DNA of 23,465 nt from a virus. The notes below the pieces were generated by a model that was not told the origin of the DNA, made no database searches, and saw nothing but the letters and a program-made list of their open reading frames with translations. The position numbers and the translations under genes are program-made. The stretch lies in IMG/VR virus record IMGVR_UViG_3300033064_006053, positions 1 through 23,465 of that record; one strand, given 5' to 3'. Of this stretch, positions 4,801 to 23,032 are shown in pieces (within the stretch, counting starts at the first letter, position 1; every line of letters starts with the position of its first letter).

Positions 4801-7702
4801 CCTTCACGCTGCCGGACAGGGCGCGCGCGGTGTAGCTGCGGCCGTTCCCGTGGTCGGTCCACCCGGTCACGACGTAGCGCCGCCCGGTGCCGTGCAGCGT
4901 CACCACCTGGCCCACGTGGTAGGTGGCGTCGCCGTGCTCGGCCTTCGCGGCTGCGACCTTGTCGGCGTCGGCCTTGTGCTTCGCCGCCACGCTTCCGGCC
5001 GGGTGGCCCTTGCCGGGCGTGAACAGGCCCGCGTGCTGCTCGAGGCGGCGCAGGGTGTCGTCGCGACCATCCGGGCTGATGATGTCCAAACCCAGGTGCT
5101 GCTCTCGGCGCAACGCTCGGAGCGCGTCTGCGTCGCCGTCGACGTGAATCCACCCGTAGGCGGTGCCGGAGCTGCCGCGCACACTCCAACCCCCACCTGG
5201 GTGGGCAGCCTCGAGCGCGGCCTTGATGCGCTTCACTGCCTCGCCGCGGTCCGCCGGCGGGTGCCAGCCGGCCGTTGCCTCCTGGTGGGCCTTCTTCTCG
5301 GCGGCCGCCTCTGCGTCTCGCTTCTCGCGATCTGCGACGGCGCGGGCCTTGCCCTCGGCGATGCCCTCCGGGGAGCGGGGACCGCGCGGGTCTTCGTCCT
5401 CCCACTTGAACCGCGCCCCGCGGTCGCCGAAGTCGCGGGCGACCATGCTGTGCGTGACGCTGCTTTCGGTGCCGTCGTCCCACCGGACGACGTAGCGGTC
5501 GCCCCACTCCCCACTCTTGACAGCGCTCACGATCTCGCCGTTGCGGGGCTGGTTCGCCATGTCGCCGGTGTAGTGGAGCCGATCGCCGGGCTTGCCGATG
5601 CGACGGCCGTTGGCGTCCCGCTCGACAGGCGGCGTTGCAGCCGGCGCGGGTTGCGGCCGCGCGGGGAAGGCCAGCACCTTCGCGCTGGGCGCCGCGGGCG
5701 CCACGGGGGCATCCAGCTTCGCCTTGAGGTGGTCGATCACCTTGGACGCATCCGACCGATTGAGCCCCCCGACGGACAGGCCGCCAAGCGCCGCCTTGAT
5801 GGCGTCGTCGCGGAAGCGGTAGCCGGCCCGGCCCAGCATGCCGTCGATCGCCTGCATTTGTGCGTCGGTCGGCTTCGCGTGGTGGTGCTTGACGGCCGTA
5901 CCTTCGGCCTGCCCGGTCTGAGCGGCCCCGAGCGCGTCGCTGTCAGCCGCAGCCTCGTCGAAGTGGCTGTCGTTGGCCGGAGACAGCGCGCCTGGCGACA
6001 CGGTCGAAGACGATCCGGTGTGCCGAATGACGACAACCTTCCCATCGGGAAGCACATCGCGCACGGTGCCCGCGCGCCGGATGTACCTGTTGAGCGTCTT
6101 GCTGTGCTGCTGCCACGTCACGCGGCTGCCCGGCTCGCCGTGTTTTGGCGTGGGCGCGCTCGGCACCGGCGCCGTCGCCCCCCCACCCTGCCCCAGGTGC
6201 CGCGTGTGCTCGTACCGGGCCGCCTCGGCGGCGATGCGGGCGCGCTGCTTCGCGGTCCCGTGCTTGCCGGCGGCCGCGATGTCGCGCCCCATCTGGTCGC
6301 GGTGCTCGCCGATGGCGGTCGCGTGGTGGGCGTGGAGCATCGCGACCAGCGCGCGCCGCTCGACGACGTGCACGGCCCCGGTCTCGTCGTGGCGGATCGT
6401 GACCCTGTCGCCGTCGACCGCCTGGATGTGGAAGTGGCCGGACGTCCCGTCGTCGTCCAGCTTGAACGCGGCCCCGACCTTCATCTCGTCGGCGTGGCCG
6501 AGGCCGGCGCCGCCGCTCACCCGGTAGAAGTAGCGCCAGGGGCGCTTGGGGTTCCCGGTGGGGACGCGGCGCAGGTACTTGTGCCCTGCCCCCTTCGCCA
6601 GGTCGGAGGCCTGCGCCGCGTACAGGCGCTCGCCCAGCCAGTCGGGCACCTCGCACTCGGCGATGGCGTCGAGGGCGCCCACGGCCTTCGCGAGGCTCGC
6701 TCCACCTTCGATCTTCTTGCCGCCCCGCTGCGCCAGCCACGCTCGCAGCTCGCCCATCGGCAGCTTGCGCACGGTCCCCATCTTGAGGTCGCGGCGGTTG
6801 TAGGCGGCGCCGAAGCAGGCCCGCACGTCGTCGGCAGTGCCGAAGCCGACGAAGACCTTGTCCTCGTCGTGCTCGCCCGTCGCCGGGTCGCGCAGGTGGA
6901 TGACGTAGGCGAAGGGCGCGTGGCCGTTCGGCCCGACGAAGGCGTCGACCGGATCGCCGTCGGTGCCCTCGGTCGCGGCGAACTCGCCGTAGTGGGCCGG
7001 CATCGTGACCGACCAGGGCTTGCCGTCGGCGTCGGTCCCCGATCGCGTGCCGCCGCGCTGGGTCTCGACCAGGATGGTCAGGCCCTGGAAGTCGATGGTC
7101 CCGACGTAGGGGTACTCCGCGCGGTTGGGCCGAGGCGGCGGCCCGACCACGACGGCGCCGTCCACCTGGGCGTCGCCCCCGCCGGACGCCCCGTCCGCCC
7201 CGCGCAGCCGGCGCGCAGCGGCCAGGAGCGGGTTGCTCACACCCTCCCCCTTCGCGAGGGCCCCGCGCCCATTCTCGGCCAGGCTCGCCCCGAGTCGCCC
7301 GAGCTGGCGCCGGTGCCGCTGCCCGTACTCCCGCACCTCGGCGTCGCTCGCGCTCGAGAGGTAGGCGCCGCGGTAGTCCGGGTCGGAGGGGTAGTCGTGG
7401 GCGGCCCGCTGCAGGGCGGCCCGCTCGGACGCATCCCCCATCGACTCGACCGCCTCGATGGCGTCGGGCGAGGGGGTGTCGCGCTCACCGCCCCGGGCAC
7501 CCGCCAGCCGGGCGACGACGCGCGCGGCGAGGTCGGCCGGGAACCACCTGAGCGAGGCGGCGCTGACGCTGCCACGACGCGCCAGTCGCGCCACGGTGGC
7601 GGCCTGGGTGTCGGTCAGGCCGAGCCCATCGAGCGAGGGCGGAAGGGGGCGCACGCCCCGGATGGCGCCGGGCTGAATCGGGTGGTGGGGGAGGACAGCC
7701 AC
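1835..7702 (-). CDS. Giant polyvalent phage protein with inorganic-pyrophosphatase-like domain
   Basis: This 1955-residue multidomain protein starts at a GTG, the most upstream start after an in-frame TGA; the ribosome site is poor, so the start is uncertain. After a helical N-terminus, residues about 195-325 match the inorganic-pyrophosphatase-like (InPase) domain of phage polyvalent proteins: MPAHYGEF, GTDGDPVDAFVGPNG, DEDKVFVGFGT, KMGTVRKLPMGEL. Next come KYLRRVP...RYFYRV (about 375-395), several SH3-like segments (about 530-575, 705-755, 928-970), a helical unit with RSDASKVIDHLK (about 610-665), an SVRGSSG unit resembling an LPD29-type domain (about 820-890) and a GEVVEGTTQKRGNKVW unit (about 1078-1145). 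The remainder is Ala/Arg/His-rich and unrecognised. Such proteins are thought to be packaged or injected and to act early in the host; that role is inferred here. It lies directly upstream of the portal, whose ATG overlaps its stop. Confidence 0.85.
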   Translation of the reverse strand: MAVLPHHPIQPGAIRGVRPLPPSLDGLGLTDTQAATVARLARRGSVSAASLRWFPADLAARVVARLAGARGGERDTPSPDAIEAVESMGDASERAALQRAAHDYPSDPDYRGAYLSSASDAEVREYGQRHRRQLGRLGASLAENGRGALAKGEGVSNPLLAAARRLRGADGASGGGDAQVDGAVVVGPPPRPNRAEYPYVGTIDFQGLTILVETQRGGTRSGTDADGKPWSVTMPAHYGEFAATEGTDGDPVDAFVGPNGHAPFAYVIHLRDPATGEHDEDKVFVGFGTADDVRACFGAAYNRRDLKMGTVRKLPMGELRAWLAQRGGKKIEGGASLAKAVGALDAIAECEVPDWLGERLYAAQASDLAKGAGHKYLRRVPTGNPKRPWRYFYRVSGGAGLGHADEMKVGAAFKLDDDGTSGHFHIQAVDGDRVTIRHDETGAVHVVERRALVAMLHAHHATAIGEHRDQMGRDIAAAGKHGTAKQRARIAAEAARYEHTRHLGQGGGATAPVPSAPTPKHGEPGSRVTWQQHSKTLNRYIRRAGTVRDVLPDGKVVVIRHTGSSSTVSPGALSPANDSHFDEAAADSDALGAAQTGQAEGTAVKHHHAKPTDAQMQAIDGMLGRAGYRFRDDAIKAALGGLSVGGLNRSDASKVIDHLKAKLDAPVAPAAPSAKVLAFPARPQPAPAATPPVERDANGRRIGKPGDRLHYTGDMANQPRNGEIVSAVKSGEWGDRYVVRWDDGTESSVTHSMVARDFGDRGARFKWEDEDPRGPRSPEGIAEGKARAVADREKRDAEAAAEKKAHQEATAGWHPPADRGEAVKRIKAALEAAHPGGGWSVRGSSGTAYGWIHVDGDADALRALRREQHLGLDIISPDGRDDTLRRLEQHAGLFTPGKGHPAGSVAAKHKADADKVAAAKAEHGDATYHVGQVVTLHGTGRRYVVTGWTDHGNGRSYTARALSGSVKGSGPSGIRADVMAPHPDQQVEFSGAEASQRRAAALQEIATAGGDADQRAEARQAVMAGRAARAPAEVGPAGPPATAPQPADSLERAKAALASIPAPAPAAGGAHPPVAFIGEVVEGTTQKRGNKVWSVPHTGSIPPEQFAAMKADAEAVKGYHLRGQGFTFRDPAHARDFAARWGAGGTPVAPAVAPQAAVQPAPPAPPPAAPKPSAWDAAAGAGESWRQKRAENAGVEGRRADVKVTPAAGGSHKHRLVIDGKDRGEHYLGDARRIAAETASEGQAIRNRDRNAAAAVAARAKLGLDPANAPAPVPEKIQPTRQESAEAMTARHAAEVAAIDAGDGKILDKMKARDAAKVRHEVEAFEAGHKWQDPREVQQALDRARQRGFNTYGGKRELGYKHHGVEHLRAALPAIMGRHRAHQEAQAARARATGSAEARLSKLYHHLAGGGAWRTDAPDVGEVVTHRNDTLEVARVGGRNARVTAHGAPDGSGHLRGHHELGMPHREAMDAVISTASDDDLAAIAAADPARGGIQAKTHQGPYGFGVAHAAAEVERRKAAGTWRPSQAAPAPRALAEVHQAMQAHRDGRKAQREADADRKDARAVVARADLARRAASQAAPVSTPRRTDAQKHAAAIEAVGGSGASVDHHEGNVTVVRKDHRGVGPSWSVVEHHDDGTTTEHRDGSTEKRRDARAYAEDLRAVHARAGKPTREHLQTAADLDHVAEHIGHASFEVPEHLRHQYETPDRSHDGVVRADTWTTTSGMPGHDPHGAERSRDSQRMREIAGQLRGGHANVDARGSHRWGTGGGQLAGMEGGYATSREKARERAERDPPAYAEHDRAPRAVDRDSLTAEAAHLTGKWRAIMAGKTHATDTSDSANAARTASGSAVQQAWNNGYTFERGAWRDGDEAALYNLDQNAGHRQKAAVESLRAAGVRPVPHGHFPTRESGPAAKLLPAPRAGSSPLAKAFVRASGPLRPLDALVQRARAARGLAA

Positions 7703-7832: not shown

Positions 7833-8336
7833 TCAGTCATCCATCTGGGAAAGGAGCCAGTCGTAGTAGGCGCAGGCGCCATCGCCGCCGTCGAGCACGG
7901 CCAGTGCAACATCCGGCAGGAGCTCCCGACCGATGGAAAGCACCCTCGCCTCGAACTCGACCGCCGCAGCGCGGCCGCCAGCCGTCTCGATGAAACGGTC
8001 TGCCGCCGCCTGCTGCGCAGCAGGCGACGCCATGATGTCCAGGTCGTCGGCGGTCAGGTCGGCCAGGTCGGCGGTCGGGCGCCAGCCGCGGCCGACGTCC
8101 ATCTGGACCACGCCGCCGCGCTTGCGGACGGCGTCGGCCAGTCGCTCGGTCGCCACCGCGACGAAGAAACCGTCGCCGCCCTCGGCGTGGGCCTCGGCGA
8201 TGGCCTCGATGAAGAGCTCGTCGTCGGCCGCCTCCTGGCCGAGCCAGGCCTTCGCGTCCTCGACTGCGGCCTCGGGCGTCTCACCGAGACCCCACGCTCG
8301 CCCCTGGCCGATGACGATGTACCTGTTGCTGTCCAT
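7833..8336 (-). CDS. Hypothetical phage protein, 167 aa
   Basis: The product is 167 aa, starting MDSNRYIVIGQGRAWG. The ATG at 8336 is chosen over an upstream in-frame start at 8417 because the upstream extension overlaps the previous gene and looks like shadow sequence. The N-terminus has the pattern 'IVxGxGxAWGxGxTxExAxxDAxAW', seen in small phage proteins of unknown function; I do not recognise a named family. The C-terminal half is acidic and alanine-rich with no membrane segment or cysteine motif. The gene lies 34 nt after the stop of its upstream neighbour and about 130 nt before the giant polyvalent gene, probably in the same late transcript. Confidence 0.65.
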   Translation of the reverse strand: MDSNRYIVIGQGRAWGLGETPEAAVEDAKAWLGQEAADDELFIEAIAEAHAEGGDGFFVAVATERLADAVRKRGGVVQMDVGRGWRPTADLADLTADDLDIMASPAAQQAAADRFIETAGGRAAAVEFEARVLSIGRELLPDVALAVLDGGDGACAYYDWLLSQMDD

Positions 8337-13222: not shown

Positions 13223-13858
13223 TCATCGCGCGCTCACCGGGTCCCCGGTGGCGCTGTGCGGGGGCTCCGGGGCGTCGCCGCCCGGCTCGGCCCAGGGCGA
13301 GAACACCTTCTGCCCGGCGGCGTCGAGCACCGCCACCACGCAGCGCGCGCCCGACGCCCTGCGCTCGGCGTAGCCCTTGGCTGTGAGCCGTTCGAGGACC
13401 TGGGCCGGCCAGAACGGCGACTTCGACCCGATGTGCTGTGCGATCTCGCGGATGGTCGGCGGGTAGCCCCGGCCCACCTGCTGCCCGATCATGTAGGCGA
13501 GCACCTGCGCCTCGCGCTTGGTCAGCCGGTCCATCTTCCCGGGGCCCTGGTCGGGCCGCGGCGGGCCGGACGACGGCTCCCGGGTCGCCACCCCCACCAC
13601 GGCCAGGGCCTCGGCGCAGACGGCGTCCCGCATCGCCAGCGCGACGGCACGGGCCTCGGACCGGGTGAGGGTCGGCCCGACCTCTCGCGTGGGCTTGCGG
13701 GCGACGATCCACTCCGCGAACCCTCCCGCGACCACGATCTCGGCCCACCACCCGTCCACGCGTTCGCGCCCACGGCGAGCTCGCAGGGTGAAGATGCCGG
13801 CGCGCATGCTGTCGCAGTGGTCGTCGGGGTCTCGGGTCCAGCCGGGGCGCTGGGTCAC
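13223..13858 (-). CDS. LexA-like winged-helix DNA-binding protein, 211 aa
   Basis: The GTG at 13858 overlaps the TGA of the preceding gene (GTGA), the coupling used throughout this operon. Residues about 111-170 read as the LexA N-terminal winged helix: LTKREAQVLAYMIGQQ, GYPPTIREIAQHIGSKSP, VLERLTAKGYAERR. No LexA protease domain (no catalytic Ser/Lys region or cleavage loop) is present. The N-terminal 100 residues (GWWAEIVVAGGFAEWIVARKPTREVG ... SEARAVALAMRDAV) are unrecognised. It is the last gene of the middle operon, just before the terminase block, so it might regulate the early/late change; that is inference. Confidence 0.7.
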   Translation of the reverse strand: MTQRPGWTRDPDDHCDSMRAGIFTLRARRGRERVDGWWAEIVVAGGFAEWIVARKPTREVGPTLTRSEARAVALAMRDAVCAEALAVVGVATREPSSGPPRPDQGPGKMDRLTKREAQVLAYMIGQQVGRGYPPTIREIAQHIGSKSPFWPAQVLERLTAKGYAERRASGARCVVAVLDAAGQKVFSPWAEPGGDAPEPPHSATGDPVSAR

Positions 13859-14307
13859 GACGCAGCCTCCGCGGCGATGCCCCAACTGCGCAGGAGCGTG
13901 GTCGAGACGTACCAGCTCCACCGATCGATGGGGCTCACCACCACCTGCCAGCCCGCGCCCTTGAGCGTGCCTGCGATGCGCGCCGCCCCTGGCGCGTTCG
14001 CGCTCTGCACCACGGCCCGGCGCGGCCCGATGCCGGCCATCACGAGTCGCTCAGCCAGACTGAAGCCCGTCGGGCACTCGCACCGCTCGGTCGACTTCGT
14101 GCGGGGGCAGGGCGACCAGCCGGGCCCCTCGCACAGGTCGTGGTCGAAGAAGACCACGTCGGCGGCGAGCACGTCCTCGTCGGTCACGCTATCGGCCGTC
14201 AGCCGGTGGACGATCGTGACCTCGGCGCCGATGCTCGCCTTCCGCAGCAGGTCGTGCAGCAGGCCCAGGCGCGAGGGGGTGTCGTCGATGAAGAGGATGC
14301 GGGTCAT
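13855..14307 (-). CDS. Cyclic-phosphate-processing receiver (cREC)-like domain protein, 150 aa
   Basis: The whole protein reads as a receiver-fold domain of the cREC type: MTRILFIDDTPSR (D8, D9), VVFFDHDL (D55, H56, D57), GFSLAERL, then VVQSANAPGAARIAGTLKGAG, where family members usually have HSxNxxG. The family is predicted, not proven, to process cyclic phosphates on nucleic acids or nucleotides. Unusually, the loop after DHDL carries four cysteines (C59, C67, C76, C78) that could bind zinc. The ATG at 14307 overlaps the stop of the preceding gene (ATGA), and its own stop overlaps the next GTG. A degenerate response regulator is the alternative, but the DHDL and SANxxGA signatures favour cREC. 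Confidence 0.7.
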   Translation of the reverse strand: MTRILFIDDTPSRLGLLHDLLRKASIGAEVTIVHRLTADSVTDEDVLAADVVFFDHDLCEGPGWSPCPRTKSTERCECPTGFSLAERLVMAGIGPRRAVVQSANAPGAARIAGTLKGAGWQVVVSPIDRWSWYVSTTLLRSWGIAAEAAS

Positions 14308-15803: not shown

Positions 15804-16069
15804 GACGCCAGCCCCACGCCTGCCGCCAGATCCCGCGCGTGGACCACCCCAGCCCCAGGCACGCACGCGAGACCGGCACCGCCCGGGAGCGTTGCGCGCA
15901 GGATGCCGACGGTGTCCTCGCTCCACCCCTTGCACGTCACCGGCACCAGCACCACCCAGGCCCGGGGGCCACGCCCACGGACCCGCCCAACGCAGCCGCC
16001 GTGGCGCTCCACGGCAGCGCGGGCGCGGGCGGACACCGCAGGACAGCGGAGGCCGTAGAAGGGGCTCAC
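15800..16069 (-). CDS. Hypothetical small protein, 89 aa
   Basis: GTG at 16069 overlaps the methyltransferase stop (GTGA), and its own TGA overlaps the next GTG. The product starts MSPFYGLRCPAVSARARAAVERHGGCVGR and contains VLVPVTCKGWSEDTVGILRATLP. Three cysteines are scattered without a clear metal-binding spacing. No family is recognised; the placement between two coupled genes is the main support that it is real. Confidence 0.55.
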   Translation of the reverse strand: MSPFYGLRCPAVSARARAAVERHGGCVGRVRGRGPRAWVVLVPVTCKGWSEDTVGILRATLPGGAGLACVPGAGVVHARDLAAGVGLAS

Positions 16070-17646
16070 GACGCGGACTCAGCGGCTACGATGCCGAGGC
16101 CGATCCAGCGCATCACCACCACCGCCATCGAGTTGCCGATCGCCTTGTACCTCGGCCCATCAGGGCAGGCCTCGGCCGGGCGCCCATTCCAAGGGATCTG
16201 CGTCCAGCCGTCGGGCATTCCCTGGAGCCGCTCGCACTCCATCGGCGTCAGCCTGCGCACGATCCGGCGGCCGAAGACGGCAGGGAGCGCCTGACCCAGA
16301 TTGCCGCCACCACCCGAGATCGCCCCCGTCCGCAGCCCGTCGCCGCCCTCGAGCCGGACCTCTGCGCGCGAGTTCTCCGCGAAGGCCCGGAGGTCGAGAA
16401 CGGCCGGCGGCGCCCCTCCGTTGGCGTGGCTCCCGCTGTGCCCACCTGCTCGGAGCGTTGGGCAGATCGGCCCCGCGTCAGCCCCATAGTCCTTCGAGGA
16501 GAAGGCGAGCACGTGGCCCGTATCCTTCGCGCCCACCGGCAGAGACATGTTGCGCGCGACGATCGGGTCCTCGCGGGCGTTGACCACGAAGGCCTCGGTC
16601 TCGAAGTCGTAGCGCCGCGATCCCGATGCGTTCACCGCCGTCGCGACGTCGATTGGGCCGCTCTGGCGGTTGCCGCGGTAGCACTGCGTGATGATAGGAG
16701 TCCCGCGCCCCGTGCCGTCTTCGCTCGCGTCAGCGCCCTCCGCGCACAGCGCGTGGGTTCTGTCCCCTGTGACGCAGACGTAGGTCTCACCCCCGCGACC
16801 GCAGCCGGCCCGCAGCCGGGGCAGAGCAGGCGTCGAGTCCGCCGAGTCGCCTTCGACGATCAGATGCCCCGATGCCGCTTCCTCCGCCCCTACCCTGTGC
16901 CCACGCCAGCCAGAGCCGCCCGCCAGCACATGCCCGACGATCAGACGCCCGGCGCGGGCGTCGTTGTCGTCGGGCCCACCGTCGCTCCCAGTCAGGGCTC
17001 CGACGACGCGATCTCCCGCAGCGCATCGAGAAGCTCGGCCGGCGGCGACCGACCGCGCTTCTCCGCGCGCCTCAAGATCCCTCGGGCCGCCTTCGGCGAG
17101 AGCGAGAACCGCGCGGGCAGCGGCCCCGTCTCCAAGACATCCGACAACGAAGACCCGTCGCCGTCGCTGGGGAACTCCGAAGCCTTGAGCGTCCAGCACT
17201 CGCCAGGCGCAGCGATACCCGACGTCGACCAGCCCGCGAACGAACGACGCGAAGTCCCACCCGCCGGCGGATGAGAGGACGCCGGGGACATTCTCCCAGA
17301 CGACCCATCGGGGGCGGATGATGCTCGCGACTTCTGCGAAGGCGAGTGCGAGACGTCCTCGCGCATCGCAGAGGCCGCCCCTGTTTCCAGCCACGCTGAA
17401 CGACTGGCAAGGGGTGCCTCCGACAAGAACGTCAACTGGTCCGAGGGCGCGGAGCCTCGTTTCTGTGAGCGAGAGGACATCGCCGAGGTTCTCCACGGTG
17501 GGGAAGCGGTGTGCGAGGACGGCCGATGGGAAGGGCTCGACCTCTGCGAAGGCCGCCGCCTCCCATCCGAGCGGCTCCCACGCGAGCGAGGCCGCCTCGA
17601 TGCCCGAGCAGATCGAGAGATACCGGAGCGGAGCATGGCCGATCAC
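16066..17646 (-). CDS. DNA (cytosine-5) methyltransferase, phage type
   Basis: The product is about 526 aa and transfers a methyl group from S-adenosylmethionine to C5 of cytosine in a specific sequence. Visible motifs: I, YLSICSGIEAASLAWEPLGW (about 9-28); IV, GGTPCQSFSVAG with the catalytic Cys at about 80; VI, WENVPG (about 118); VIII, GVPQRRRRVFVVG; IX, RRLTPMECERLQGMPDGWT; X, RYKAIGNSMAV. Between VIII and IX lie about 280 residues, a long target-recognition region typical of phage Dcm-like enzymes. The start GTG at 17646 overlaps the previous stop (GTGA); in-frame GTGs at 17652 and 17661 are alternatives. No cognate restriction enzyme is visible, so it probably shields phage DNA from host restriction. 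Confidence 0.95.
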   Translation of the reverse strand: MIGHAPLRYLSICSGIEAASLAWEPLGWEAAAFAEVEPFPSAVLAHRFPTVENLGDVLSLTETRLRALGPVDVLVGGTPCQSFSVAGNRGGLCDARGRLALAFAEVASIIRPRWVVWENVPGVLSSAGGWDFASFVRGLVDVGYRCAWRVLDAQGFGVPQRRRRVFVVGCLGDGAAARAVLALAEGGPRDLEARGEARSVAAGRASRCAAGDRVVGALTGSDGGPDDNDARAGRLIVGHVLAGGSGWRGHRVGAEEAASGHLIVEGDSADSTPALPRLRAGCGRGGETYVCVTGDRTHALCAEGADASEDGTGRGTPIITQCYRGNRQSGPIDVATAVNASGSRRYDFETEAFVVNAREDPIVARNMSLPVGAKDTGHVLAFSSKDYGADAGPICPTLRAGGHSGSHANGGAPPAVLDLRAFAENSRAEVRLEGGDGLRTGAISGGGGNLGQALPAVFGRRIVRRLTPMECERLQGMPDGWTQIPWNGRPAEACPDGPRYKAIGNSMAVVVMRWIGLGIVAAESAS

Positions 17647-17849
17647 GCCCACGCCCCCCACTCATCGTCCACCTCCGCCCCCACTCTACCGACCACGGCG
17701 CCAGGTCGCCGCACCGCAGCATCAGCCCGGGCCTGGCGCGCCTCGATCACCCGCGCCTGAGCGCACGTCCACCGCAGGCACACTGCGGGCCGACCGCTGA
17801 TGCCGGTCACGAGGTCGGGCAGACCGCATCGGTCGCACGCCGCCTTCAT
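17643..17849 (-). CDS. Small zinc-finger-like protein, 68 aa
   Basis: The product starts MKAACDRCGLPDLVTGISG with cysteines in the order C-x2-C, then CLRWTC, a plausible four-cysteine zinc site. A helix (QARVIEARQARADAAVRR) and an acidic tail ending DDEWGAWA follow. The ATG at 17849 overlaps the upstream stop as ATGA, and its TGA overlaps the methyltransferase GTG, so it is locked into the operon. Small zinc-binding phage proteins of this size are often nucleic-acid binders or inhibitors of host proteins, but this one is unassigned. Confidence 0.6.
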   Translation of the reverse strand: MKAACDRCGLPDLVTGISGRPAVCLRWTCAQARVIEARQARADAAVRRPGAVVGRVGAEVDDEWGAWA

Positions 17850-19231: not shown

Positions 19232-19977
19232 AGCCGGCACACGCGGCATGCAGTGCCGCCCCCATCATCGATGACAGGCAGCGACAACTGCGACCGCGCC
19301 CCGGGCGGAACCCTGCCACTCGAGAACTCGGTTCTGAGGTCGGCAAGCCCGGCTGGCCACGTGTCGCGCTGAGCACTGCGGAACGTGTGCCCGGTCGCAG
19401 TCTCCTGCGCCTCTGCATCTGCGTAGATACTGGGGTGCATCTTCCACAGGTCCCACCACTCGCCGATGCGCTGACCGTAGCACCGCGCGCAGTCAGTGCG
19501 CGCCGGGATGCTGACCCCGCGCCTGCGAAGATACCCCGTCACCTCGGCCAGCTCCCACCCCCATTCGCGGAGCGGGAAACGCGAGTCGATCGTCGTCGAA
19601 TAGATGCCCTGGCGTTCCTCCTCGTCTGCTCGGAGACCGACGTACAGCACAGACCCAACCGGCAGCGCCGCGAAGTACGCGAGGCATGGCTCAATCTTGA
19701 GCACCCTGGTACACCACCGCTGGCGCCCGTTCGGCAGCGCGTTCCACTTCTCGATGAGGCCGTCGAGCGTCCCATTCGACACCCGCACGATGGGATTGCC
19801 GAGCATGTCCTCAAGCCTGCCCCAGTGCTCCAACATCTCGGGCAACTCATCACCCGTCGGAGTGCAGAGGTAGGTAAAGTCGACCGATGGCGCAGTCTCA
19901 GCGAGCCGAAGTGCGAGGGCAGTCGAATCCTTGCCCCCGCTCAGCGCAACGACATGGCGGGGTGCATCGCTGCTCAC
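19228..19977 (-). CDS. PAPS-reductase-like / PP-loop nucleotide alpha-hydrolase, 249 aa
   Basis: GTG at 19977 overlaps the helicase-loader stop (GTGA) and gives MSSDAPRHVVALSGGKDSTALAL. SGGKDST is the PP-loop that binds ATP or PAPS-type nucleotides. Further family marks are TYLCTPTGDELPEM, RWCTRVLKIEP, GLRADEEERQG and a C-terminal TDCARCYGQRIGEWW with a CxxC. Phage genomes often carry such proteins near replication genes. Roles proposed for relatives include sulfur transfer to nucleic acids (DndC-like) or nucleotide activation, but neither can be assigned here. No DndA/D/E partner is visible. Confidence 0.82.
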   Translation of the reverse strand: MSSDAPRHVVALSGGKDSTALALRLAETAPSVDFTYLCTPTGDELPEMLEHWGRLEDMLGNPIVRVSNGTLDGLIEKWNALPNGRQRWCTRVLKIEPCLAYFAALPVGSVLYVGLRADEEERQGIYSTTIDSRFPLREWGWELAEVTGYLRRRGVSIPARTDCARCYGQRIGEWWDLWKMHPSIYADAEAQETATGHTFRSAQRDTWPAGLADLRTEFSSGRVPPGARSQLSLPVIDDGGGTACRVCRL

Positions 19978-21029
19978 GACGCACACCCCTGCGGTTCAAG
20001 CGCGAGCAGTGCAGGGGTTGATGCGTTGGTGCGCGCCTTCGACCCGCCGCGCCTGCGGTAGTCGCTCGCGATGACGTCGACCACCGTGGTCGCGCCGAGC
20101 ATCCGCGAGTGGGCCCTGGCACCGATGCCCGCGATGAGCCCCTCGCGCGGGTTGTCGGTGTGCGGGCTAAGGTTGGTGGTGATGATGGCCGTCTTGCCGT
20201 CCGCGACCACCATCTCAGCGACGCGCTCGGCCCGCTCCACTGCCCACTCCGCGTTGCCACCAGCACCGCGCATCTCGTCGAACACGAGCACGTCGACGCT
20301 GCAGAGCGCGTGAAACAAATCGTCCTCGCGCCCGTCCCCGTCCCACGATCGCTTGACGGCGCTGAGGAAGTCGGGCCAGTAGACGTATCGGCACGTCACC
20401 CCGCGGCGTATCGTCAGGTGGCGCACGAGCCCGCAGGCGATGTGCGTCTTGCCCGTCCCCGTCGCGCCGTAGAGCATCACCCCCACGCCGCCAGGCTCCC
20501 ACCCGTCGAGCCAGGTGCGGAGGTAGGACCGCAGCCCGACCCGCGCGACCACCGTGGCGTCGAGCCGCGCCCAGTCGAGACTGCCGCCGTCACCGACGTC
20601 TGCGAGGTCCGTCGTCGCAGACGCGCCGGGAAGGCACGCGCGGTTGAACGCCTCGACCCGCGCCACGAGCCCGCCGCAAACCTCACACCGCGCGGCGAAC
20701 GCGTACCCTCGGTCGTCCTCGACGCGCACCCACCCGTCGCAGCACTCAGGCCGCCCACACCCCGTCCACTCGTGCGACACCCGGGCGCGGGCCAGAGTGA
20801 CCCGCCCCACGCGCTCGGCATAGACGTCGATATCACCTGGGGCCGGGGCCCGGGGCGCCCGGGCTGGCGGCGCCGCGGCCCGCGCCGATGCGGTAGCGCG
20901 GAGCGACTCGACCACAGCGTCGACCGCATCGCTGAGCGACGTGGTTGAGCGCGGTGCGCGGGGTTGCGGCGCGGGCGCCGCGATGTGGCGCGCGAGTGCT
21001 TCGAGTTGGCCCCGTTCGTCGTCGGTCAT
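19974..21029 (-). CDS. DnaC-like AAA+ replicative helicase loader, 351 aa
   Basis: The product loads the replicative helicase onto origin DNA opened by the initiator. The N-terminal about 65 residues are Ala/Pro-rich. A zinc-finger-like region follows (CGRPECC about 91-97, CEVC about 115-118). Then come the ATPase motifs: Walker A GATGTGKTH (about 188-196), Walker B VDVLVFDEMRG (about 245-255), sensor-1 IITTNLSP, and a late arginine-rich region RAHSRML. The ATG at 21029 has AAGGGG upstream. It follows the ParB-domain gene by 66 bp with no gene between. The zinc region resembles the zinc fingers of DnaC/DnaI-type loaders. Confidence 0.87.
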   Translation of the reverse strand: MTDDERGQLEALARHIAAPAPQPRAPRSTTSLSDAVDAVVESLRATASARAAAPPARAPRAPAPGDIDVYAERVGRVTLARARVSHEWTGCGRPECCDGWVRVEDDRGYAFAARCEVCGGLVARVEAFNRACLPGASATTDLADVGDGGSLDWARLDATVVARVGLRSYLRTWLDGWEPGGVGVMLYGATGTGKTHIACGLVRHLTIRRGVTCRYVYWPDFLSAVKRSWDGDGREDDLFHALCSVDVLVFDEMRGAGGNAEWAVERAERVAEMVVADGKTAIITTNLSPHTDNPREGLIAGIGARAHSRMLGATTVVDVIASDYRRRGGSKARTNASTPALLALEPQGCAS

Positions 21030-21095: not shown

Positions 21096-22601
21096 CTATC
21101 GTCGCTCACCTGCGGCCGTCGCGCGGAGCTCCTCGGCCTGCTCTGCTGGCGTCATGGCCTCGAACTCAGCCCGCGCGGTGCGGTTGCGCTCGATGATGCC
21201 AGGAAGCTCCGAGGCGTGTAGCTCGTTGACCCGCGCAGCGTGTGACGGTGCGCGCCCCCGCCCACGGGCCGGCGTCGGGTCCGTCAGGCGGTCGATCAAC
21301 CACCGCGCGTTCGGTGCGGCCTGGCCCGCGAACAGCTCTGCGATCTTGGCCTCGATGTCCGCGACGGTGTGGCCCGCAGCGAGCGAACTCTGCAGGCACA
21401 CCCCGATGGCGCTCCCCGGCGGAATGCTCGTGATGCGCCGACCTGCGCCGTGCATGTCGCGACGGTGGTTGTGCTCCGACACCCACTTGGCCTCGATGCT
21501 GGCGTAGGCGGCCTGCGTCGCGGGGTCGCTGGCGTCGAGCCCCTCGTGCGTGCGCGTGGGCTCGCATGCGCGCGTGATCGCGCTGCTCTCTCTCTCTCTT
21601 TGATCTTGGTTGGGTTTTTCAATCTCTCTCTCTCCCCCTAAAGAGGGAGAGAGAGCGCATGCGCGCCTGCGCTTGCGTGATACCGCAAGCGCAGGCGCGG
21701 GCGCATGCTCGTCCGCGCTCACACGCGCGAGGGACGCCTGCGCCAAGATGCCGAGGCAGTCGCCCGACGCAGCGCAGACCTGCGCGACGTGGTGGCTGAT
21801 GGTCTGCTCGCCCGGGGAGTCGAGGCCACCCGACCCCACTGCGCGGACCATCGCCCGAGCCGCATCGTCGAGCGCATGAGCCGCGGTATTGAGGTGCGCG
21901 CGGGCCTGCGCCGCGGGGTCGAGCGCCACCGGCGGCCGCGGCTCGGGCTCCGCGTCTCGGCTCCGCACCGGCGCTGCGTCGGCCGGCGCCACGTCCATCG
22001 CGTAGCACTCGACGTCGGGCGCGGACTGCGCGTAATCATCGCCGGTGTCGATGCGGTTGGCGACTGCGGGCCCACGTCGCCCCGACACGTCCATCTCAGA
22101 CACGTTGCCGTGGCGGTCGGTGTAGGTTCGTGTGTGGACACTGGATTCGGAATCCAGTGACATCGATGCCCTGACCTTCGCGACGAACGAGTGGGCGACT
22201 GAGCACCGGCGCGCAATCTCACGGTCGGACCACGACGACCACTCATCATCAGCAAGTGCTCGCTCGACTGCGTTGCGCTTGTCCTGCGGGCTCCGCTGCA
22301 GCCCGTGCGCCGCGTTCGCTCCGAGGCTGTGCAGCACAGCGTCGCGGCGAGCACCGTCATGGACGTTTGCGTCGATGGCGTCGAGCCCTGCCAGGACGTA
22401 CGCCGCGACGCGGTGGAATCCGTCAGCGAGCCACATCACGCCGTCGGCGTTTCGGTAGACGTCGACGGGCGGGAACGGTGCGCCATCGCGCAGTTTCTCG
22501 GCATAGTCCTCGATGGTCTCCGTGCTCATCGCAGCCCGCGGTTGCGTCCCGCCGTCGCGCCGCACGTCGGCCACCAGCACCGTCTCACGGTAGCAGCTCA
22601 T
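21096..22601 (-). CDS. ParB-like nuclease/HTH protein, candidate replication initiator, 501 aa
   Basis: Residues about 5-150 read as a ParB N-terminal domain plus HTH: VLVADVRRDGGTQPRAAM, GVMWLADGFHRVAAYVLAG (the G-x-HR motif), NAAHGLQRSPQDKRNAVERAL, SWSDREIARRCSVAHSFVAKVR. A long linker follows; about 305-340 is encoded by the hairpin and purine tracts, giving an odd basic/acidic stretch (SRKRRRACALS, then GEREIEKPNQDQRERE). A conserved-looking C-terminal domain ends it (SIEAKWVSEHNHRRDMHGAG ... AIGVCLQSSLAAGHTVADIEAKI ... WLIDRLTDPTP). ATG at 22601 overlaps the stop of a mini-ORF (ATGA); an alternative GTG is at 22634. Placement before the helicase loader suggests an initiator; a transcription or partition role is the alternative. 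Confidence 0.78.
   Translation of the reverse strand: MSCYRETVLVADVRRDGGTQPRAAMSTETIEDYAEKLRDGAPFPPVDVYRNADGVMWLADGFHRVAAYVLAGLDAIDANVHDGARRDAVLHSLGANAAHGLQRSPQDKRNAVERALADDEWSSWSDREIARRCSVAHSFVAKVRASMSLDSESSVHTRTYTDRHGNVSEMDVSGRRGPAVANRIDTGDDYAQSAPDVECYAMDVAPADAAPVRSRDAEPEPRPPVALDPAAQARAHLNTAAHALDDAARAMVRAVGSGGLDSPGEQTISHHVAQVCAASGDCLGILAQASLARVSADEHAPAPALAVSRKRRRACALSPSLGGEREIEKPNQDQRERESSAITRACEPTRTHEGLDASDPATQAAYASIEAKWVSEHNHRRDMHGAGRRITSIPPGSAIGVCLQSSLAAGHTVADIEAKIAELFAGQAAPNARWLIDRLTDPTPARGRGRAPSHAARVNELHASELPGIIERNRTARAEFEAMTPAEQAEELRATAAGERR
21585..21599. repeat. CT-dinucleotide tract
   Basis: A near-perfect pyrimidine run (CTCTCTCTCTCTCTT) lies inside the ParB-like gene. It can pair with the GA tract at 21645-21655 as an alternative to the nearby CT arm. 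It encodes the RERE-type stretch and differs sharply in composition from the rest of the gene. Confidence 0.75.
21626..21655. repeat. CT/GA inverted repeat (11-bp stem, 8-nt loop)
   Basis: CTCTCTCTCCC (21626-21636) pairs exactly with GGGAGAGAGAG (21645-21655). It is the second of two hairpins clustered in the linker of the ParB-like gene. Just beside it is an A+T-rich spacer containing GGGTTTTTCAA (21612-21622). Confidence 0.8.
21657..21708. repeat. Large perfect hairpin, 16-bp stem extended to 21 bp
   Basis: CGCGCCTGCGCTTGCG (21662-21677) and its exact reverse complement (21684-21699) flank a 6-nt loop TGATAC. Beyond a 4-nt bulge, GCATG (21657-21661) pairs with CATGC (21704-21708). GCATGC occurs again at 21564, so three copies cluster here. 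It is the longest perfect inverted repeat I found in the window. Confidence 0.9.
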
Positions 22602-22636
22602 GGCGCCTGCCCCGTGTCGTCGTAGCACCTGCACAT
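22598..22636 (-). CDS. Leader mini-ORF, 12 aa, coupled to the ParB-like gene
   Basis: The mini-ORF MCRCYDDTGQAP has the best ribosome site of the region (GAGGTGAC, GAGGTG 6 nt before this ATG). Another ATG directly precedes it at 22639. Its TGA overlaps the ATG of the ParB-like gene (ATGA), while that gene has only a weak ribosome site of its own. Translational coupling is the likely purpose; two cysteines in CRC are notable but may mean nothing. It could also be a chance ORF. Confidence 0.45.
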   Translation of the reverse strand: MCRCYDDTGQAP

Positions 22637-22676: not shown

Positions 22677-22696
22677 GTGGAATGAAAGCGCGTCAA
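22668..22696 (-). promoter_or_regulatory. Putative leftward early promoter
   Basis: On the minus strand, TTGACG (22696-22691) is followed after exactly 17 bp by TAGCCT (22673-22668). The -35 matches 5 of 6 consensus bases and the -10 only 3 of 6. The start would fall near 22661, just before the GAGGTGAC site of the mini-ORF. A GGTTAG/CTAACC operator covers the -10. Confidence 0.5.
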
Positions 22697-22720
22697 CCGG
22701 AAACTTTCTTCAAAAGACAG

Positions 22721-22749
22721 TTGACGGCTAATCCAATGGCGGTTAATGT
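22721..22749 (+). promoter_or_regulatory. Putative rightward repressor promoter, probably leaderless
   Basis: TTGACG (22721-22726) is followed after 17 bp by TAATGT (22744-22749), and the repressor ATG follows only 7 nt later at 22757. Transcription would begin at or next to the ATG, giving a leaderless mRNA, and no ribosome site is visible. Imperfect GGTTA-type half-sites lie in the spacer and at the -10. Confidence 0.5.
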
Positions 22750-22756
22750 CCTGCTC

Positions 22757-23032
22757 ATGGATACGAAGAAACCGAACCGCCGCCTCGACGCCCTGCACAC
22801 CTTCATCAGGTCGAGCCCCTACAGCCGAGACACACTGGCGCATGAGCTTGGCATCTCGGTCTCGTACCTGCACCGGCTCATCACCGGGGCGTGCATCCCG
22901 AGCGCCGACCTTTGCGTCCGCATCGAGCGGGCGACGATGGGCGCGGTGACCCGTGTCTGCCTGCGCCCCGACCTGTTCGGTGACGCGCCGGCCATGCGCA
23001 GCGTCGAAGAGAAGCGCCGCGCAGCGGGGTGA
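22757..23032 (+). CDS. Cro/YdaS-type HTH repressor, 91 aa
   Basis: The product starts MDTKKPNRRLDALHTFIRSS and carries a Cro-like HTH: SRDTLAHELGISVSYLHRLITGACIPSADLCVRIERATMGAVTRVCLRPDLFG. The closing 'IERAT.GAVTR..LRPDLF' pattern is characteristic of the YdaS/Cro family of phage regulators. The start at 22757 is chosen because it follows a promoter by 7 nt; longer in-frame starts at 22682 and 22736 lie within the putative control region and lack ribosome sites. It is the only rightward regulator, opposed to the whole leftward genome, so it most likely represses the leftward promoter and perhaps its own. Confidence 0.85.
   Translation: MDTKKPNRRLDALHTFIRSSPYSRDTLAHELGISVSYLHRLITGACIPSADLCVRIERATMGAVTRVCLRPDLFGDAPAMRSVEEKRRAAG

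Follow-up and report, generated by a model that had tools for sequence, protein, structure and literature searches.

Gene content of the locus

The window, i.e., the whole stretch of DNA that was analysed, is a virus record of 23,465 bases with a GC content of ~72%. Most of its recognisable genes lie on the minus strand, including those for a terminase, a LexA-like DNA-binding protein, a C5 methyltransferase, a PAPS-reductase-like protein, a DnaC-like helicase loader, and a ParB-like protein (Table 1). An earlier note on this DNA had proposed that the linker of the ParB-like gene is a replication origin and that the 501-aa protein is its initiator. The length is right when counted from the ATG at position 22601; the reading frame stays open upstream to a GTG at position 22634, which gives 512 aa. 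The next gene was correctly named as a DnaC-like helicase loader. No ParA was found among the window proteins scanned, which represent part of the ORFs of an incomplete contig. As GC skew along the window is driven mainly by gene direction and the contig is a fragment, it is uninformative on the position of an origin. A search with the terminase retrieved distant phages only, in which P0001 had no match and P0002 had matches at chance level only.

Table 1. Genes and DNA elements at the ParB-like locus of the window
Feature	Position	Strand	Evidence or remark
DnaC-like helicase loader, next gene	19974..21029	-	PHROG 50, 3.7e-32; IstB_IS21, 8.4e-10
ParB-like putative initiator gene	21096..22601	-	501 aa from ATG; PHROG 1033, fold and profile matches
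Helical C-terminal region, residues about 360-440	21282..21524	-	no detectable family
Linker cassette (module B), putative origin core	21564..21708	-	hairpin, tract, repeat and cassette comparisons
GA tract on coding strand (CT on +)	21585..21598 (to 21601 as pairing arm)	-	
A+T-rich spacer, putative unwinding element	21599..21623		GC 32%, compared to about 72% for the contig
CT tract on coding strand (GA on +)	21640..21656	-	
16-bp perfect inverted repeat	21662..21699		sits where other initiator genes have iterons
Intragenic palindrome CACTGGATT-CGG-AATCCAGTG (module A), putative own binding site	22139..22159		synonymous-shuffle p 0.007
HTH	22164..22241	-	H137 and K142 in recognition helix covary with palindrome
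ParB-fold domain, residues about 5-118	22248..22589	-	alignments and structure model
YdaS/HTH repressor-like gene, divergent from ParB-like gene	22682..23032	+	YdaS_toxin, 6.4e-10; PHROG 35 repressor, 1.6e-10

The ParB-like protein and its relatives

Residues 1-170 of the protein comprise a ParB fold and an HTH. PHROG 1033 ('ParB-like partition protein') matched the protein at 4e-18, a Foldseek search with the predicted model matched ParB, Noc, and KorB structures with E values down to 6.6e-8, and a profile match to solved ParB chains was obtained at 2e-5; Pfam ParB_N matched below the family cutoff only. Judged by the modelled fold of the N-domain and the HTH, the protein belongs to the ParB-fold superfamily, with the GERR-type box replaced by DGFHR. 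Residues 297-330, which form the linker, are predicted to be disordered (pLDDT below 50).

Relatives were found in many viral contigs, with about 35 to 55% identity, and cover the N-terminal half only. Homologue searches with the linker and the C-terminus of the window protein found no detectable relative, nor did P0002 and the C-terminal domain queried against viral contigs or full-length P0001 searched against genomes. The genes next to the ParB-like relatives often code for DEAD/ResIII helicases and Toprim proteins; downstream of most of them lies a DEAD helicase gene, not a DnaC gene, and the linker cassette is absent. Eight aligned ParB-like proteins were too diverse for back-translation. 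In two relatives (L030, positions 4995-6212, and L033, positions 4986-6242) the ParB-like domain is followed by what seems to be an MT-A70-type methyltransferase domain, and a perfect 22- to 24-bp palindrome is present near the junction.

A palindrome behind the HTH codons

Among the ParB-like relatives, the conserved DNA element is the palindrome at 22139-22159, which was absent from the features listed in the earlier note. It immediately follows the HTH codons, and some 430 bp separate it from module B. In the relatives the best palindrome of the gene was repeatedly located right behind the HTH codons, at the equivalent place in about 19 of 46 cases, with typical arms such as TCACTGG/CCAGTGA, TATCTGGCGG/CCGCCAGATA, and TCTGTGT/ACACAGA. 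Within the stretch examined at each locus there is usually one such site. In a set of 47 representatives with less than 85% domain identity, 23 carried a palindrome that was reached by <5% of synonymous recodings, compared to 2.4 expected (Fisher p 3.5e-17). In L045 (YLSESTDN) the reading frame through identical arms differs from that in L036 and L046 (VSGGNRQI and VSGGFRQI). The retention of the arms across changes of the reading frame indicates that the DNA rather than the protein is conserved.

HTH residue 137 tracks the base that follows CTG in the palindrome, with H, N, and D corresponding to G, T, and C, respectively. In mutual-information permutations this covariation gave p values of 2e-4 with 19 sequences, 0.001 with 17, and 0.012 with 14 after thinning. 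Since the same data served to derive the code, 32 columns were inspected, and the sequences share ancestry, the covariation is strong support but not proof. The other good covarying column, 142, belongs to the recognition helix as well. When positions are counted from the conserved valine, residues 137 and 142 come to lie at or near R173 and N178 of ParB. In ParB, R173 and N178 contact parS (PMC7383237). The palindrome at 22139-22159 is probably the ParB-like protein's own binding site, and with its HTH covariation this putative site resembles the palindromic ParB site of ParABS systems.

The intergenic DNA upstream of the ParB-like gene contains an imperfect copy of the palindrome, with five mismatches, at 22718-22738 (control mean, 0.15); it could be an operator or a chance occurrence.

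DNA elements in the linker

On the coding strand the linker contains, in this order, GCATGC and a hairpin, a CT tract, an A+T-rich spacer, a GA tract, and another GCATGC. All the elements that had been described there earlier were recovered: the perfect 16-bp hairpin (21 bp with a bulge), with arms at 21662-21677/21684-21699 and a 6-nt loop; the 11-bp CT/GA hairpin, with perfect arms at 21626-21636/21645-21655 (14 nt at 93%); the A+T-richer spacer, whose 25-mer at 21599 (GC, 0.32) has, together with an intergenic one at 22700, the lowest GC of all 25-mers in the window; and three GCATGC copies starting at 21564, 21657, and 21703. In addition, a second CT tract at 21585-21601 also pairs with the GA tract at 21640-21656 (17 nt, 94%).

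The 16-bp stem is the longest in the window, compared to a maximum of 12 bp in twenty 23.5-kb Markov sequences, and 1000 synonymous recodings of the linker produced a longest stem of 13 bp (mean, 6.5). The hairpin thus exceeds what chance and codon choice produce. Within the gene, codon usage is likewise poorest in the linker (0.25 compared to a mean of 0.66). Considering the stem and the codon usage together, the linker DNA does not look as if it was written for the protein. Near-copies of CGCGCATG occur five times in the window, some of them inside the hairpin, compared to an average of 2.7 in the recodings. A window-wide enrichment of GCATGC was rejected, as 8 copies were found and 12 expected; what is unusual about this motif is only the clustering of three copies within 145 bp.

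The 16-bp hairpin had no counterpart in any relative examined, and a DNA pattern search with its palindrome matched nothing in the viral contigs; the contig contains no second copy of it. Rfam gave sub-threshold hits only, and blastn with the linker gave short, weak matches only. The earlier note had proposed a comparison of homologues as a check of its origin claim. None of the relatives keeps the hairpin or the GCATGC copies, as their C-terminal halves differ, and this linker is missing from most ParB-like relatives; by itself, this comparison of sequences would weaken the origin claim.

Recurrence of the cassette in initiator genes

A second ParB-like protein of 659 aa (L090), from a Blastocatellia MAG, shows 45% identity in its ParB-like half and has a post-HTH palindrome of its own. 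Its gene contains a cassette of the type GCGCATGC/CTCTCTCT/A+T/GAGAG: just before the C-terminal domain lie GCGCATGCATGCGCGCACGCTCTCTCT, an A+T-rich stretch, and GA tracts. The C-terminal domain of L090 matches O-like initiators (L197, 1e-5; the DUF1376 protein L112, 1e-4), and several of the next-best matches are also initiators. Because the cassette of L090 precedes an O-like C-terminus, searches by DNA alone were performed.

The first pattern, GCATGCGCN{0,8}CTCTCTCTC, identified 15 stretches, including initiator genes in L098 and L101. The second, CTCTCTCTCN{22,52}GAGAGAGAG, was derived from the window linker and L101 and matched 86 stretches when scanned over all viral contigs. At 59 loci an ORF of at least 140 aa covered the motif, and a random 30 of these were checked individually. 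Eighteen of the 30 covering ORFs matched PHROG replication initiation, O-like, primosomal, or DnaD families (about 16 when the near duplicates L147/L185 and L186/L196 are taken into account), whereas an initiator gene of roughly 1 kb in contigs of tens of kb leads to an estimated expectation of 2 to 3%. The covering ORFs include HTH_36, DUF1376, DUF6291, and DnaT types, i.e., proteins with unrelated N-terminal families. In 29 such initiator genes direct repeats were present with a mean of 4.8 copies 5′ of the CT tract compared to 2.6 copies 3′ of it (p 6e-5), and the 5′ repeats exceeded those in synonymous recodings (p 3e-6). Examples are CGTCACAA, TGTTCAAC, and ACGTGAAC; L101 carries GCGCATGCG repeats, which are close to the GCATGC elements of the window.

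The cassette was absent from all 15 DUF1376 genes taken from one bacterial class, showing that it is not universal; it is a minority feature. The hits vary in their spacers, which are A+T-rich in some of them but not in the high-GC, actinophage-like ones (overall p 0.18). A Walker-A test revealed almost no loaders behind the cassette-bearing genes, so an adjoining loader is not general in this set. Neither the CT/GA cassette nor palindromes within phage ParB-like genes were found described in the open literature searched. In L105 the motif (8130-8153, reverse complement) consists of GCATGCGC and a long CT tract and immediately follows a large ORF resembling a primase/helicase; this is possibly an intergenic version of the cassette.

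Interpretation of the locus

We consider it likely, from the sequence comparisons, that the protein is a ParB-fold counterpart of lambda O, with an origin of two parts within its own gene and with a DnaC-like loader encoded by the next one. The initiator would work like lambda O, with the ParB fold and the HTH as its DNA-binding half. Module A would be the palindrome read by the protein's own HTH, and module B, situated just before the C-terminal domain with its repeats and hairpin, CT tract, A+T-rich spacer, and GA tract, would be the origin core. A dimer might load at module A, and possibly also at the repeats of module B, and slide between the two modules. The A+T-rich spacer would then be melted, and the C-terminal half would recruit the DnaC-like loader, which would deliver the replicative helicase as in lambda.

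An origin inside the initiator gene, as claimed before, is supported by the recurrence of the cassette in O-like initiator genes, whose repeats lie on the side of the tract where lambda has its iterons, and by the similar cassette of L090, a ParB-type protein with an O-like C-terminus. The part of the claim that involves the hairpin did not gain from the comparisons, as the hairpin is without counterpart in the relatives and the linker and C-terminus are without detectable homologue. Further points against our reading are that the C-terminus of the window protein is tied to O-like C-termini by its place only, that most ParB-like relatives have a DEAD helicase gene downstream and lack the cassette, that the cassette is not universal and its spacer not always A+T-rich, and that modules A and B lie about 430 bp apart. 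A far-reaching extension, which we regard as speculative, is that the CT tract, spacer, and GA tract form a shared, undescribed origin module that is combined with many unrelated DNA-binding domains, and that in the window a ParB-fold NTP switch loads at the intragenic palindrome and slides to the origin core.

The strongest competing explanation, although improbable in our judgment, is an orphan ParB-type regulator or partition protein for which the palindrome is an operator or parS, the hairpins act on transcription or mRNA (autoregulation, roadblock, or attenuation), and the origin is located elsewhere. Module A also occurs in relatives that lack the cassette and is compatible with a loading site for ParB, the functions of orphan phage ParB-fold proteins are diverse (PMC12704722), and the fold matches include the repressor KorB. 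However, no parA was present among the proteins scanned, the neighbours of the relatives often encode helicases and Toprim proteins, and a cassette that recurs in initiator genes with unrelated N-termini does not suit a ParB-specific regulation.

Somewhat less probable still is that the linker merely encodes a disordered peptide whose DNA drifted by slippage (CT/GA) and template switching (hairpin) and has no function as DNA. The predicted disorder, the poor codon usage, and the simple repeats agree with such drift, but slippage predicts neither the enrichment in initiator genes nor ordered repeats 5′ of the CT tract nor paired CT and GA tracts. An in-frame insertion of a mobile palindromic repeat (REP- or RPE-like) is a very unlikely source of the hairpin: a strong isolated palindrome with foreign codon usage would fit, but the contig has no second copy, the viral contigs have no match to the palindrome, and no Rfam family scored above threshold.

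Comparison with known systems

In phage lambda the iterons lie in the middle of O and are followed by an A+T-rich part and the C-terminal domain, and P is the next gene (PMC7466680). The window agrees with lambda in that its putative origin lies inside the initiator gene, with repeats and a candidate unwinding region ordered between the DNA-binding and C-terminal halves, and in that a helicase loader gene follows. It differs by a ParB fold and HTH in place of the lambda O N-domain, by a hairpin and GCATGC copies in place of four iterons, by CT and GA tracts flanking the spacer, and by a loader that is DnaC-like (IstB/PHROG 50 match), unlike that of lambda. The C-terminus of the window protein has no detectable relation to lambda O, whereas L090 does have an O-like C-terminal domain. 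The O-like, DUF1376, DUF6291, and HTH_36 initiators with the cassette (L101, L131, L149, L150, L189, L199, and others) share its order with the window but have other N-terminal domains, true direct iterons, and no ParB fold.

With ParB, Noc, and KorB and their parS, NBS, and OB sites the window shares the fold, the HTH, and a putative palindromic site. In contrast to these systems, no ParA was seen among the scanned proteins, the box is of the DGFHR type, the neighbours are replication genes, and the palindrome is intragenic, directly behind the HTH codons. Phage ParB-fold proteins without ParA have been surveyed (PMC12704722) and resemble the window protein in this respect; the main text of that survey does not mention palindromes and uses the word replication once.

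If the proposed reading is true, the sequence by itself would suffice to find phage origins of the CT-spacer-GA type, and replication initiation would be a new role for a ParB-type switch protein. A specificity code is suggested by the intragenic palindromes (H to G, N to T, D to C), and target sites could then be predicted for many orphan phage ParB genes. The recurrence of the cassette in unrelated replication genes would point to a shared origin design, for which the literature searched holds no description.

Other features of the window

At 13223-13921 a phage protein with a LexA-like DNA-binding domain (Pfam, 1.1e-11) is encoded, possibly reflecting damage-linked control. The C5 methyltransferase ORF at 16066-17661 also matches PHROG 864 'DNA primase' at 1.2e-51, probably because the protein is fused or the family is mixed. 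A GGCTCC tandem repeat at the end of the contig (23436-23465) is probably where the assembly stopped.
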